Position numbers and translations under genes: made by a program. From the NCBI RefSeq assembly GCF_010692725.1, contig NZ_JAAFZB010000095.1, positions 310,001 through 374,000 on the forward strand: DNA of 64,000 nucleotides. Direction: 5' to 3'. Below, in pieces: positions 8,420 to 28,422 of the stretch. The DNA comes from Flavihumibacter soli (GTDB lineage Bacteria > Bacteroidota > Bacteroidia > Sphingobacteriales > Sphingobacteriaceae). The first letter of the stretch is position 1. Each line of letters begins with the position of its first letter. The notes below the pieces were generated by a model. That model did no database searches. It saw only the letters and a list, made by a program, of their open reading frames with translations, and was not told the origin of the DNA.

Positions 8420-8423
8420 GGAA

Positions 8424-8460
8424 CAAAAAAAGAGTCCCGATAAAATATCGGGACTCTTTT
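8424..8460 (-). terminator. Intrinsic terminator of the OmpA-family gene
   Basis: A perfect 15-bp stem, 8428-8442 paired with 8446-8460 (core GAGTCCCGATA/TATCGGGACTC), with a 3-base loop. On the minus strand the stem runs into a T-rich tract (8424-8430 read in reverse). It lies 27 bp beyond the ompA-like stop codon. The stem core TCCCGAT/ATCGGGA recurs in the rimP leader (27108-27132). Confidence 0.9.
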
Positions 8461-8486
8461 CACAATATGCTTATGAACATTATTGT

Positions 8487-22169: not shown

Positions 22170-25100
22170 TTAAAGTTTCCTCTTCACTTCCACCTGCTCG
22201 TATGACTCCACAATATCTCCAACTTCAATGTTATTGAAATTGTGAATATTTAGACCACACTCGTAACCTGTAGCTACTTCCTTCACATCATCTTTGAAAC
22301 GTTTCAATGATGCCAGTTCACCTGTGTATACCACCACACCATCACGAACGATGCGGATCTTGCTGTTACGTGTTATCTTACCATCCAGTACCATACAACC
22401 TGCGATCGTACCAACCTTGGTGATCTTGAACACTTCACGTATTTCAACGTTCGAAGTGATTTTCTCAACAAACTCAGGTGCAAGCATACCTTCCATCGCC
22501 GCTTTCACTTCATTAATAGCGTCGTAGATAATGGAGTACAGACGGATATCAATTTGTTCGTGCTCTGCCAGTTTACGCGCACTTGCTGATGGGCGAACCT
22601 GGAAACCAATGATGATCGCATCAGATGCAGATGCTAACAGTACGTCAGATTCCGAGATCTGACCCACAGATTTATGGATGATATTAACCTGGATCTCTTC
22701 AGTAGAAAGCTTCAGTAAGGAATCGGATAATGCTTCGATTGAACCATCCACATCACCTTTAACAATGACGTTAAGCTCTTTAAAGTTCCCGATGGCCAGA
22801 CGACGCCCGATCTCATCAAGAGTAATATGTTTCTGAGTACGCAGACCCTGCTCACGCTGTAATTGCAAACGCTTGTTCGCAATCTCACGGGCTTCAACTT
22901 CACTTTCAAGCGAGTTAAAACGGTCGCCTGCTGTAGGCGCCCCCTGCATTCCCAGCACCTGTACCGGTGTTGCTGGTCCGGCTTTCTCAACCTTCTGACC
23001 ACGCTCATTATGGAGGGCTTTAACCCTTCCGCTGAAACAGCCTGCAAGAATAGGATCTCCCACTCTCAAAGTACCAGCCTGGATTAAAACAGTTGTTACA
23101 ATACCGCGGCCTTTGTCCAGCGCAGACTCTATAACAGTACCAACGGCACGTTTATTCGGATTAGCTTTTAACTCAAGGAGGTCGGCTTCAAGCAATACTT
23201 TCTCGAGCAGCAGATCGATACCAAGACCCGTCTTACCGGAAATTTCCTGGCTTTGATATTTACCACCCCAATCTTCAACCAGGATATTCATAGTTGATAA
23301 CTGCTCGCGGATACGGTCAGAATTAGCACCTGGCTTATCAACTTTACTGAATGCAAATACGATCGGTACTCCCGCTGCCTGCGCATGGTTGATAGCCTCT
23401 TTTGTCTGAGGCATCACGCTATCGTCAGCGGCAATTACGATGATGGCAATATCCGTTATCTTGGCACCCCTTGCACGCATGGCGGTAAAGGCCTCGTGAC
23501 CCGGTGTATCAAGGAAAGTAACACTGCGGCCATTTTCCAGTTTCACTTCGTAAGCACCAATGTGCTGGGTAATACCCCCTGCTTCACCGGCAATTACGTT
23601 TGCTTTACGCACAAAATCCAGCAATGATGTTTTACCATGATCGACGTGACCCATCACGGTTACGATCGGCGACCGGGAGATCAGGTCTTCTTCGGTATCC
23701 GCTTCCTCCAGGATACTGGTTTCTTCATCTTCCGGCTTAACGAACTCCACTTCATAACCAAACTCGTCAGCTACAATAGTTAAGGTTTCCGCGTCCAGAC
23801 GCTGGTTGATAGACACGAACATGCCTAAACTCATACATGTCGAGATGATCTGGGTAACCGGAACATCAAGCATATTGGCTAACTCATTTGCCGTAACAAA
23901 CTCGGTAACCTTGATTATTTTTGACTGCAGCTCGCGCTCCATTGCAGCATCTTCCGCTGTCTGGGCCACATCATCCCGTTTCTGACGACGGAACTTAGCG
24001 CGCTGTGCAAACTTACCGGACTTACCAGCACCGCTTAAACGGGCAAGTGTGGCCTTGATCTGGTCTTGTATTTCTTTATCTGTAGGTTCTGCCTTAGGAC
24101 CATCCGGAGTACGGGGTTTGTTCCTGAAGTCTGGACGTGCTCCGCCCTGCTGAGGGCCTCTGTTCGGACCAGCATTCGGTCTGAATGGCGGACGTGCTCC
24201 CGGAGGCGTAGCGCCACCCGGCTGATTAGTGCCAGGACGTGCTCCCTGTGCAGGAGGATTCTGGCCCGGTGCTCCCGGCTGGTGATCTTTACGCTTACGC
24301 TTACGTTTATGGTCGTTGGCAGCAGCGCTCGATGAAGAAGCAATCGGCTGTCCACGGCGCGAAGACTGTATCGGCAGATCAATCTTGCCTATAACCTTCG
24401 GTCCGGTTAAATTATCTGTTTTAGCCCTGAAAAGTTCAGGAGCCTGAGGTGCATCCGGTGCCGAAGGAGTCGCAGGCTTTTCTTCAGCTTTCGCTGGCTC
24501 CGCTGCCGGTTCTGCCGGAGCGGCCTTAGCTTGCTCAGGCGCAGGTGCAGGTGCTTCCGGCGTTTTCACTTCGGTAACAGGTGCTTCTGGCTTTGTCTCC
24601 TGGGGTTTCTCTGCAACAGGCCTTTCCGGTGCGGTTTCAGCAGCAGGCTGAGGCTTAACCTCTTCGGCTTTAACAGGCTCCGCAGGAGCGGCTTTTTCTT
24701 CAACAGGCTTTGGTGCTTCCGGCTGAGGCGCAGGCTTTTCGGCCTCCGGAGCAGGAATACTTTCAGGCGCAGAAGGCTTGTCAGGGCGGCTTTTAGTGTT
24801 CAGGTCATCAAGATTGATCTTCCCAACCACTTTTACACCCGGCAAAACACCTTCGGCTGCTTTAGGCTCTTCAGGTTTAGGCTCTTCGGCGGCAGGCTTA
24901 ACCTTCTCTACCGTTGGAGCAAATGTATTGACGTTCTTGATCAGGATCTCTTCCTGCTCAAAATCTTTCGAACGCGTCGGTTCTGTTCTTTCGGGAACAA
25001 CAGGAGCTTCATCGCGCCGGATCTTGCCAATGATAATTTGTTTGGCCTCTTCCTTAACAATCTTATCGCCCTGGAATTCCTTTAAAAGAACCTCATACAT

Positions 25101-25235
25101 CTCATCGGTGAGTTTCGTATTAGGACGGGCTTCCACCGGATGCCCTTTTTTCCCTAAAAACTCCGCCGCTGTGGATAAACCAATATTCAGCTCTTTTGCA
25201 GCTTTAAGTAAATTTGTGCTTTTGCCTTCTGACAT
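22170..25235 (-). CDS. infB: Translation initiation factor IF-2
   Basis: A 1021-residue IF-2 that positions initiator tRNA on the ribosome. Residues 1-80 are the IF2_N domain, followed by a long Pro/Ala/Glu-rich low-complexity linker (about 100-275), a basic/Gly-rich stretch ([13 protein letters not shown] repeats) and a second IF2_N domain (about 445-490). The GTPase domain has G1 [12 protein letters not shown]3 DTPGHEAF and a G4 that reads SKVD rather than NKxD. Domains II-IV follow to residue 1021, including the fMet-tRNA-binding C2 domain with [14 protein letters not shown]. It is the last gene of the rimP-nusA-infB operon, 105 bp after nusA. Confidence 0.98.
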
Positions 25236-26581: not shown

Positions 26582-27064
26582 TTACTTAAATGAAATTAAC
26601 ACTTTAGTTTCAGCTATTTGATCAAATTCTATGAAATTTTCAACCAGTTGAGCTTTTTTATTCTTTTCGCCTGCTAAACGGGAAGGCTTAACATTTTCCG
26701 CAAGGGTGATACCCGCTTCATCTGCTGCGATCAGCTTTCCTTCCCGAACTGTGCCATCAGCAAGCTTCACACTCACTGAGCGGTTAATGTTCTTACTGTA
26801 CTGGCGTACCGATTTTAGTGGTGTGTCAATTCCCGGTGAAGATACTTCCAGGTTGTAGGCCTGCTCGATTACATTCTCTTCCTCCAGGTGAAATCCCACA
26901 TGCCGGCTTATATCAGCACAGTCCTTGATCCCGATCCCCTGGTCACCATCCATCAGAATAGTAAGCAAGCCGCTTGAGTGCATTTTTACATCAACAATAA
27001 ACAGGTCGGGACGGTCGGCGATCTTCTCTTCGATTAACTGGATCACCCGATTTTCAATATTCAT
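26582..27064 (-). CDS. rimP: Ribosome maturation factor RimP
   Basis: A 160-residue RimP needed for 30S assembly. The N-domain has DVKMHSSGLLTILMDGDQGIGIKDCADISR and the linker YNLEVSSPGIDTPLKS, the RimP signature. The C-terminal SH3-like domain covers about 90-155 (SVKLADGTVREGKLIAADEAGITL). It is the first gene of the operon with nusA and infB, in the near-universal order. Confidence 0.97.
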   Translation of the reverse strand: MNIENRVIQLIEEKIADRPDLFIVDVKMHSSGLLTILMDGDQGIGIKDCADISRHVGFHLEEENVIEQAYNLEVSSPGIDTPLKSVRQYSKNINRSVSVKLADGTVREGKLIAADEAGITLAENVKPSRLAGEKNKKAQLVENFIEFDQIAETKVLISFK

Positions 27065-27103
27065 ACGCTGTCAATATTCCCGGTAACAAAACCGGCCGGT
27101 AAC

Positions 27104-27132
27104 AAAAAGAGCCCCGATGACATCGGGACTCT
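27104..27132 (-). terminator. Terminator-like hairpin in the rimP-nusA-infB leader
   Basis: On the minus strand a 12-bp stem (27132-27121 with 27119-27108; one G-U pair) is followed by T's (27108-27104). It begins about 7 bases after the predicted transcription start and ends 40 bases before the rimP ATG. It can only end transcripts from the operon promoter itself, so it is placed as an attenuator. Two direct copies of CCGGTAACAAAA lie between it and the ATG and could allow alternative pairing. Confidence 0.6.
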
Positions 27133-27145
27133 CCTTAGGTTGGTG

Positions 27146-27175
27146 CAAATATAACTGATTTTTCTATAACTGCAA
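27146..27175 (-). promoter_or_regulatory. Promoter of the rimP-nusA-infB operon
   Basis: On the minus strand: -33 TTG (27173-27175), a 19-bp spacer and -7 TATATTTG (27146-27153) followed by C. It is a textbook Bacteroidota housekeeping promoter. The start of transcription should be near 27140, giving a leader of about 75 bases. Confidence 0.8.
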
Positions 27176-27344
27176 AACGCTGATTTTAAAATAATTATTG
27201 GGGGCTACTCACAATATGTTCCAACGTAACATCATATTCTCATTGGCCTTATCTGCAAGAATTCTATCTAACAAATTATACTAGCTAAGTCCTGAGTGAC
27301 AGATCTATTTTTTCATTCTTTTTGATGAACAGATCACTTATTCT

Positions 27345-27455
27345 CCCGCGGATTTACGCAGAAAACCCTCGCAGATTTACGCAGAAAAGACGTTCAAAAT
27401 GGAATATTTGGAGATCTGCGGTGATCTGCGGTCCTTATCTGCGAGTATCAGCGGG
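27345..27455. repeat. Imperfect palindromic repeat of CGCAGAT units
   Basis: A 111-bp stretch in the 27.1-27.6 kb gap. Two copies of CGCAGATTTACGCAGA-like sequence on the left face two inverted ATCTGCGGTGATCTGCGG copies on the right, bounded by CCCGCGG and CAGCGGG. The whole could fold into one long hairpin. Such CGCAGATTTACGCAG elements recur between genes in many Bacteroidota genomes. The rest of the gap (27180-27344 and 27456-27583) shows no gene. Confidence 0.55.
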
Positions 27456-27583
27456 AAAAGTTAGCATCCTTGCTTTATCATTCTGCCAATGATCTTAGAA
27501 TCTGCGGGAGAAATATCTTCGCGCCCTTTAAAATCCTTCTCCTCCTTAAAGTGAAGTCCGTACCCGCCTGCGTGGGCTTCCTC

Positions 27584-28036
27584 TCATTTCTTAAAACTAA
27601 ACTCCACTATCTCAGCCTGCTCCGACAGGCCACGCCCATCCATTACCAGATCCGACGGCTTGCCTAAAATATTCCGGGTATAAAACCTCGCAAAATACAC
27701 GCTGTCTTTTTTAAACTCTTCTGCCGGAACGAACGATATCACGCTATCCTTCAGCAAGTATTGCCCGGCAAGCGGCCGCTGGAGGTCCTTTAATTCCGGA
27801 TCCCCGTGATCAGGATATACTGAAAAGAAACTCTGCCACTCCTTTTCCCCAAGGGAATCAGACCCCAGGTAATCCAGGACATCAGATGAGAGGCCGTGCA
27901 TTTCAACAGCCGAACTGTCGGCGGCCAGCGAAAAGCGAACCTTCTCATGCGGGGTATTGAGCGCTTTTTTATTGCTGCATGCCATCAGCCCCAAAAAACA
28001 AATTAGTATTAAGTGAAACAGATTTTCGACCTTCAT
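27584..28036 (-). CDS. Hypothetical lipoprotein
   Basis: A 150-residue protein with a type II signal peptide: hydrophobic residues 7-19 and the lipobox LMAC (Cys20). The mature part is mostly beta, with no motif I recognise; the C-terminus SDLVMDGRGLSEQAEIVEFSFKK looks like the last strands of an immunoglobulin-like fold. It probably sits in the periplasm attached to a membrane. It diverges from the holin-like gene with a 41-bp gap. Confidence 0.65.
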   Translation of the reverse strand: MKVENLFHLILICFLGLMACSNKKALNTPHEKVRFSLAADSSAVEMHGLSSDVLDYLGSDSLGEKEWQSFFSVYPDHGDPELKDLQRPLAGQYLLKDSVISFVPAEEFKKDSVYFARFYTRNILGKPSDLVMDGRGLSEQAEIVEFSFKK

Positions 28037-28077: not shown

Positions 28078-28422
28078 ATGAGACTGATCATTGAAATTTT
28101 ATTAATGGGTGCGGCTGTCGCACTCGCGGCCTACTTCCTGCCGGGCGTCAATGTCGATGGGTTCGGAAGCGCCATCCTGGCCGGCATCCTGATCGCGCTG
28201 GCTAATGCCACTATCGGAACGATCCTGAGGATTCTTACTTTCCCGATCAATTTTCTAACCCTGGGATTAATGTCCTTCATAATCACCGTACTGATGGTGC
28301 TATTAGTTGACAGCCTTATGGATAGTTTCAATACCAACGGATTCTTTTCCGCTATGATATTCGCTATCATCCTGGCCCTTATCAAAATGCTCTTTGGTGC
28401 CCTAAGCAGCAGCAGAGACTAG
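28078..28422 (+). CDS. Four-helix membrane protein, phage holin IV_2 family
   Basis: A 114-residue integral membrane protein with four hydrophobic helices joined by short loops. The motif ALANATIGTILRILTFPINFLTLGL is the mark of the PF04020 (YvlD/holin 4_2) family. Despite the name, chromosomal members are not phage genes; no other phage genes are nearby. Function is unknown, though homologues are often linked to envelope stress. Confidence 0.88.
   Translation: MRLIIEILLMGAAVALAAYFLPGVNVDGFGSAILAGILIALANATIGTILRILTFPINFLTLGLMSFIITVLMVLLVDSLMDSFNTNGFFSAMIFAIILALIKMLFGALSSSRD

Follow-up and report, generated by a model that had tools for sequence, protein, structure and literature searches.

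The stretch of DNA analysed here (the window) spans 64,000 nt of Flavihumibacter soli contig NZ_JAAFZB010000095.1 and carries the genes rimP, nusA and infB on its minus strand, preceded by a short leader (Table 1). On this strand TTG-N19-TATATTTG (27175-27146) is followed by 10 nt, a hairpin, a U-tract and then rimP. Direct reading and folding thus confirmed the promoter, stem and U-run that the original prediction had placed ahead of the first gene. The start site was positioned by reference to Flavobacterium psychrophilum, whose housekeeping box, TAnnTTTG, occupies -12 to -5 (PMC9723704). From this predicted site the stem, which begins 10 nt past the box, would start at about +7, leaving about 6 nt ahead of it, and an RNA stopped in the U-tract is predicted to be about 40 nt long.

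Table 1. Features of the rimP-nusA-infB locus, with positions counted in the window
Feature	Position	Strand	Basis or remark
-33 element TTTG	27173..27176	-	Direct reading; TTG at 27175-27173, 19 nt ahead of the -7 box
-7 box TATATTTG of the Bacteroidota housekeeping promoter	27146..27153	-	Direct reading; TAnnTTTG ahead of the stem in 118/118 family leaders with a detected hairpin
Predicted transcription start (A)	27141..27141	-	From the published box position, -12 to -5 (PMC9723704)
Terminator hairpin (predicted), 14 pairs, 3-nt loop	27105..27135	-	Folding; conserved and covarying
U-tract TTTTTGTT	27101..27108	-	Direct reading; 7 U in the 9 nt past the last stem G/C
Direct repeat copy (CCGGTAACAAAA) overlapping the U-tract	27096..27107	-	Not conserved
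Weak second stem-loop (CCGGT/ACCGG)	27080..27095	-	Folding of the leader
Direct repeat copy (CCGGTAACAAAA on the plus strand)	27080..27091	-	Not conserved
rimP	26582..27064	-	NF002531, 133 bits (cut-off 123); PF02576
nusA, N-terminal, S1 and KH domains, 411 aa	25341..26576	-	TIGR01953, 386 bits (cut-off 253); Pfam domains
infB	22170..25235	-	TIGR00487, 791 bits (cut-off 424)

Folding of 27142-27065 gave a minimum free energy of -30.2 (z -3.45), with 1 of 200 shuffles equally stable, and paired 27135-27122 with 27118-27105 around a loop at 27121-27119. The free energy of this hairpin is about -18 kcal/mol (-18.0), and the rimP ATG lies 40 nt beyond the end of its stem. The '12-bp GC-rich stem' first described here is a real hairpin, of 14 pairs, but its GC-richness is only mild, with G-C at 6 of the 14 pairs and G-U at 3. 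At the place of the weak second stem-loop many congeners have small stem-loops composed of other letters. The built-in terminator scan of the window missed the rimP hairpin and returned only two sites, both on the plus strand. A search of the window against Rfam returned nothing at gathering scores: RF01770 reached 14.4 bits on the leader (E 9.4) against a gathering score of 47, and six further weak matches were at chance level.

rimP was found in all 20 genomes of the genus and in 148 of 151 genomes of the family, to which more members were added later. At 85 rimP loci a nusA match was always present (85/85), and by a position rule it lay downstream on the same strand in 84; the single exception (L088) is probably due to a short upstream flank that fails this rule. 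Hairpin scores of 18 or more were obtained for 150 of 185 rimP leaders; of 1850 shuffles no more than 5 scored as high, as did 3 of 184 control stretches lying further upstream. The family set, 119 leaders that are part of those available, was searched by a strict stem search, whose detection rule demands at least 5 T among the 8 nt after the stem, and by a fold-based method with thresholds of -8 and -10 kcal/mol. The strict search recovered a terminator-like hairpin with U-tract in 118 of the 119 leaders (missing L147), the fold-based search recovered 118 at either threshold (missing L123), and every leader was caught by one or the other. The fold-based controls at -10 kcal/mol gave 15 of 357 shuffles and 8 of 118 stretches further upstream. 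In all 118 leaders with a detected hairpin the TAnnTTTG box lies 7-24 nt ahead of the stem, and both box and hairpin are present in all of 80 named loci, a set overlapping that of the family. Relative to the predicted start sites of these 118 leaders, 3-20 nt lie ahead of the stem, which begins at +4 to +21 (median +9), and the predicted 3' end falls at +34 to +52 (median 40). As a separate observation, the 118 leaders contain 39 occurrences of the hexamer ATCTGA between the -7 box and the stem, among the first bases to be transcribed.

The hairpin extends well beyond the family. Of 25 class leaders outside the family, all pass -8 kcal/mol and 23 pass -10, whereas the corresponding shuffles do so in 8 and 3 of 75 cases and the upstream stretches in 5 and 4 of 25; in some class members the hairpin ends about 12 nt ahead of rimP. 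From the rest of the phylum 41 leaders were picked out of 87 available, and 38 of them pass -8 kcal/mol against 28 of 123 shuffles, the controls at -10 being 17 of 123 shuffles and 5 of 41 upstream stretches. Beyond the class the box is harder to discern: TAnnTTTG occurs within 45 nt in 11 of 38 leaders and TAnnTTT[GA] in 19 of 38, against 9% for shuffled sequence. In certain leaders of one class family (L074 and L083-L086, family f4) we noted by eye an A-U rich TTATTTA...TAAATAA element just ahead of the terminator, which could form a second stem and is repeated in related leaders.

While the hairpin is kept, the residues that form it are not. In the window the 5' arm is C-rich (CCCGAT...ATCGGGG), unlike the rest of the family, where a G-rich 5' arm is usual. 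Stems of the GAGCCCCG/CGGGGCTC type are seen in most of the congeners (Daejeonella). The commonest stem, GAGGGGAC/GTCCCCTC, accounts for 37 of 120 distinct hairpins and occurs across most of the class, with GAGGCACG, AGTGGG, TCGCCC, TAGCCCG or GTGAGCG stems in other lineages. Several C-G pairs are exchanged for G-C inside one genus. When 18 distinct genus leaders are aligned with plain MAFFT, 93.9% of the cells are paired and 9 cells are changed on both sides, and none of 500 shuffles reaches either value; changes on both sides occur in 4 of 11 pairs, a number reached by 6 of 500 shuffles. Three rows with shorter loops are out of register in this alignment, which lowers the covariation count. 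When the register was slid as a control, 2 of 6 registers (-2 and -1) had 6 pairs changed on both sides as against 4, yet only 57-58% of their cells were paired. A stem-anchored table of the 120 distinct hairpins displays C-G, G-C, A-U and G-U exchanges at several positions; having been fitted to the stems, it is descriptive only. The comparison of leaders envisaged in the original prediction has therefore come out in its favor in both near and far relatives: the position and pairing of the predicted hairpin are kept, and its letters have turned over with compensatory changes.

We then compared this arrangement with what occurs elsewhere in the genome. The 464 kb compared (the window and 20 further stretches) contain 347 boxes along with 78 terminators that score similarly; in only two pairs does a terminator come within 40 nt after the box, and a gene follows only at rimP. 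The pattern TTTG, 5-25 nt, GAGGGG, 6-14 nt, CCCCTCTTT is present in 76 of 151 family genomes and lies at most 160 nt from rimP in every case among the matches listed; none was found in the window's own genus, whose stems differ. When a covariance model built on 18 leaders of the genus was scored on 150 first-look candidates per genome, the top match fell at rimP in all 20 genus genomes, a result given by construction as the 18 leaders come from these genomes. The model's second-best matches (at most 38.6 bits) were considered as further leaders and rejected, as the 10 loci inspected, among many listed, proved to be gene-end terminators of an OmpA-like gene. In the window this terminator (8422-8462, minus strand) has a GAGTCCCGA/TCGGGACTC hairpin that is nearly that of the rimP leader, and it recurs in the same place past the gene at the 10 congener loci examined, some of which have a doubled stem. 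It thus offers a picture of an ordinary terminator in these genomes. The hairpin strength of -18.0 in the window and a median of -17.7 in the family compare with a median of -15.1 over 104 terminator-like sites sampled from the genome, 36% of which are at -17 or below, and the U-tract has 7 of 9 U at the rimP leader against 6 of 9 at the sampled sites. A repeat element as the source of the hairpin was also rejected, since the genome holds a single exact copy of the hairpin, its own opposite-strand reading aside, and other matches have 2 mismatches. Comparison across genomes thus establishes the anatomy of the predicted leader, its conservation and its tie to rimP alone, and supports the proposal that a promoter, hairpin and U-tract so placed form a premature terminator able to act only on rimP-nusA-infB.

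No sensor is visible in the leader. The two direct copies of CCGGTAACAAAA that had been suggested to offer alternative pairing are indeed present, but 7 of 100 window shuffles hold at least two matches at one mismatch, the repeats are absent in the 19 congeners, and the terminator stem has a mean pairing probability of 0.85-0.98 in the 8 leaders folded. We accordingly discarded a direct-repeat antiterminator, given this absence and because pairing past the U-tract would come too late. A 20-codon frame (27123-27061, minus strand), starting in the hairpin loop and overlapping rimP by ATGA, was rejected as a leader peptide, no such frame being present in the other 19 congeners. More generally, the leader does not have the features of a riboswitch, T-box or leader-peptide attenuator: only 3-20 nt precede the stem in the 118 family leaders, there is no Rfam match, and the 20-codon leader frame is not conserved.

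Suspicions that nusA is autoregulated go back to the 1980s, and the target offered was a conserved hairpin motif. To our knowledge, few attenuators have been described in Bacteroidota. In 2010 Naville and Gautheret (PMC2965389) described the rimP-leader as the most ubiquitous attenuator, and its general form, a hairpin and T-stretch ahead of rimP-nusA-infB at 4-130 nt from the gene, with no visible antiterminator and with NusA suggested as regulator, is shared by the window in both gene order and distance. However, its motif is G-rich (GGGc...gCCC), whereas the window lacks a G-rich arm; the main text of that paper does not name Bacteroidota, Flavobacteria or Sphingobacteria. In the Firmicute Streptococcus agalactiae, a terminator likewise lies between the start site and rimP-nusA-infB (gbs0413-gbs0418) and NusA feedback has been proposed; there RNA-seq measured both a long RNA and a short one, whose end lies 31 nt past the start site, whereas the window's terminator is predicted (PMC4448216). 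The Escherichia coli metY-rimP-nusA-infB leader also has terminators ahead of rimP, and NusA is said to have a role in the regulation of its own operon, but that leader differs in its two terminators (t1, t2), tRNA gene and RNase III sites (PMC6511841), and RF01770 does not match the window. F. psychrophilum is of the same phylum, and for it a structured rimP 5' element without an Rfam match is listed as conserved in Flavobacteriaceae; it is named in one list, and the relevant passages neither describe its structure nor call it a terminator (PMC9723704). The main text of the Bacteroides thetaiotaomicron atlas (PMC10994844) returned no mention of nusA, infB or attenuation in a term search, and in the literature searched, which takes in few subscription journals, none of the papers describes a rimP terminator from Bacteroidota. 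The original statement that such a system is not known in Bacteroidota thus needs trimming, given the element named in F. psychrophilum (PMC9723704) and the same layout with proposed NusA feedback in S. agalactiae (PMC4448216). The kind is already known, and by motif (14.4 bits against 47, and no G-rich arm) the window is no member of the rimP-leader; it would work in the same way, with turned-over letters and close to the promoter.

Taken together, these observations make it somewhat probable that the leader is a promoter-proximal transcription attenuator of rimP-nusA-infB. That the rimP hairpin terminates in vivo is highly probable, and most likely it limits how often the operon is read; we infer that this termination is regulated. 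Polymerase would start at about 27141 and form the hairpin within the first 37 nt, whereupon it would either stop in the U-tract, freeing an RNA of about 40 nt, or continue into rimP-nusA-infB. As the approximately 6 nt ahead of the stem (3-20 in the family) leave no room for an aptamer, a leader peptide or an upstream antiterminator, the choice between stopping and reading on would probably rest with the elongation complex. A sensor would not fit ahead of the stem and pairing downstream of it would come too late, so that a factor acting on polymerase would be the natural regulator. NusA, the product of the second gene, would be the likeliest sensor, more NusA leading to more termination and less operon expression, and we give it an even chance. 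In its favor, it is encoded in the operon, and there are reports or proposals of feedback in other systems (PMC2965389, PMC4448216, PMC6511841). The leader itself, as far as its letters can tell, does not point to NusA over NusG, RNA polymerase or another factor. By work on Bacillus subtilis, NusA dependence would be best suited by a weak terminator. The rimP hairpin is as strong as ordinary terminators, and hence a weak NusA-dependent type is not favored; with so strong a hairpin, something would have to let polymerase past.

This strength is also the reason for retaining as a serious, if on the whole unlikely, rival a constitutive terminator that reduces the yield of a strong promoter in a fixed proportion and senses nothing, NusA included. 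The strong hairpin and U-tract without a visible sensor would suit it, as would the turnover of stem letters. However, a weaker promoter would achieve the same at less cost, retention across the phylum speaks for regulation, and feedback has been reported for E. coli (PMC2965389) and proposed for S. agalactiae (PMC4448216). An improbable alternative is that the structure is no terminator at all but an mRNA 5'-end hairpin that guards against decay or tunes translation start, as its placement at the very 5' end, and at about 12 nt from rimP in some class members, might suggest; such a hairpin has no need of a U-tract, yet at least 5 of the 8 nt past the stem are T in 118 of 119 family leaders, as the detection rule demands.

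A further possibility is that the hairpin is the binding site of a sequence-specific RNA-binding protein (RimP, IF2 or another) setting termination or translation. The prevalence of the GAGGGGAC/GTCCCCTC stem could be read in this sense, but C-G to G-C swaps within one genus and the GAGGCACG, AGTGGG or TCGCCC stems elsewhere indicate that position and pairing are kept and letters are not, which leaves such a site decidedly improbable. Least probable, and scarcely to be entertained, is a terminator of the upstream gene that shields rimP from read-through. In 57 of 85 loci, the window included, the closest ORF upstream shares the strand of rimP, as such a terminator would require; in the other 28 it is divergent, and with about one third of the loci so arranged the hairpin is hardly a terminator of the neighbor. 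Moreover, such a terminator should lie outside the next transcript, whereas in 118 of 118 family leaders the hairpin is past the -7 box and would stop the operon's own transcripts.

Returning to the attenuator, we tentatively raise the possibility, which we would not call likely, that it is kept throughout the phylum free of any sensor in the RNA, with selection holding the strength of the terminator and its place at +4 to +21 as the stem letters turn over. If so, the choice at about +40 would read the state of a freshly started polymerase rather than an RNA motif, this state being the loading of NusA or NusG or the speed at which the early complex matures, and this would tell against the proposal that the rimP-leader acts through motif recognition. 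A phylum that keeps position and pairing while replacing the motif separates motif recognition from modulation of plain termination, and its natural stem variants can be used to test one against the other. The leader is also worth annotating ahead of nearly every sampled Bacteroidota rimP gene.

Some further features were noted upstream of the leader. The region 27341-27512 is an imperfect palindromic repeat with 45-nt arms that are 71% complementary and units of TCTGCGTAAATCTGCG spaced at 23 nt; this unit has 14 matches with at most 2 mismatches, clustered across the genome, against 0 for a reversed-pattern control. The gap between rimP and the upstream ORF is 522 nt in the window as against about 140 in most congeners, and the region may therefore be an inserted dispersed repeat. 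Further upstream, 28078-28422 (plus strand) encodes a small membrane protein of the PF04020 family, beside which 27584-28036 encodes a 150-aa protein of no known family.
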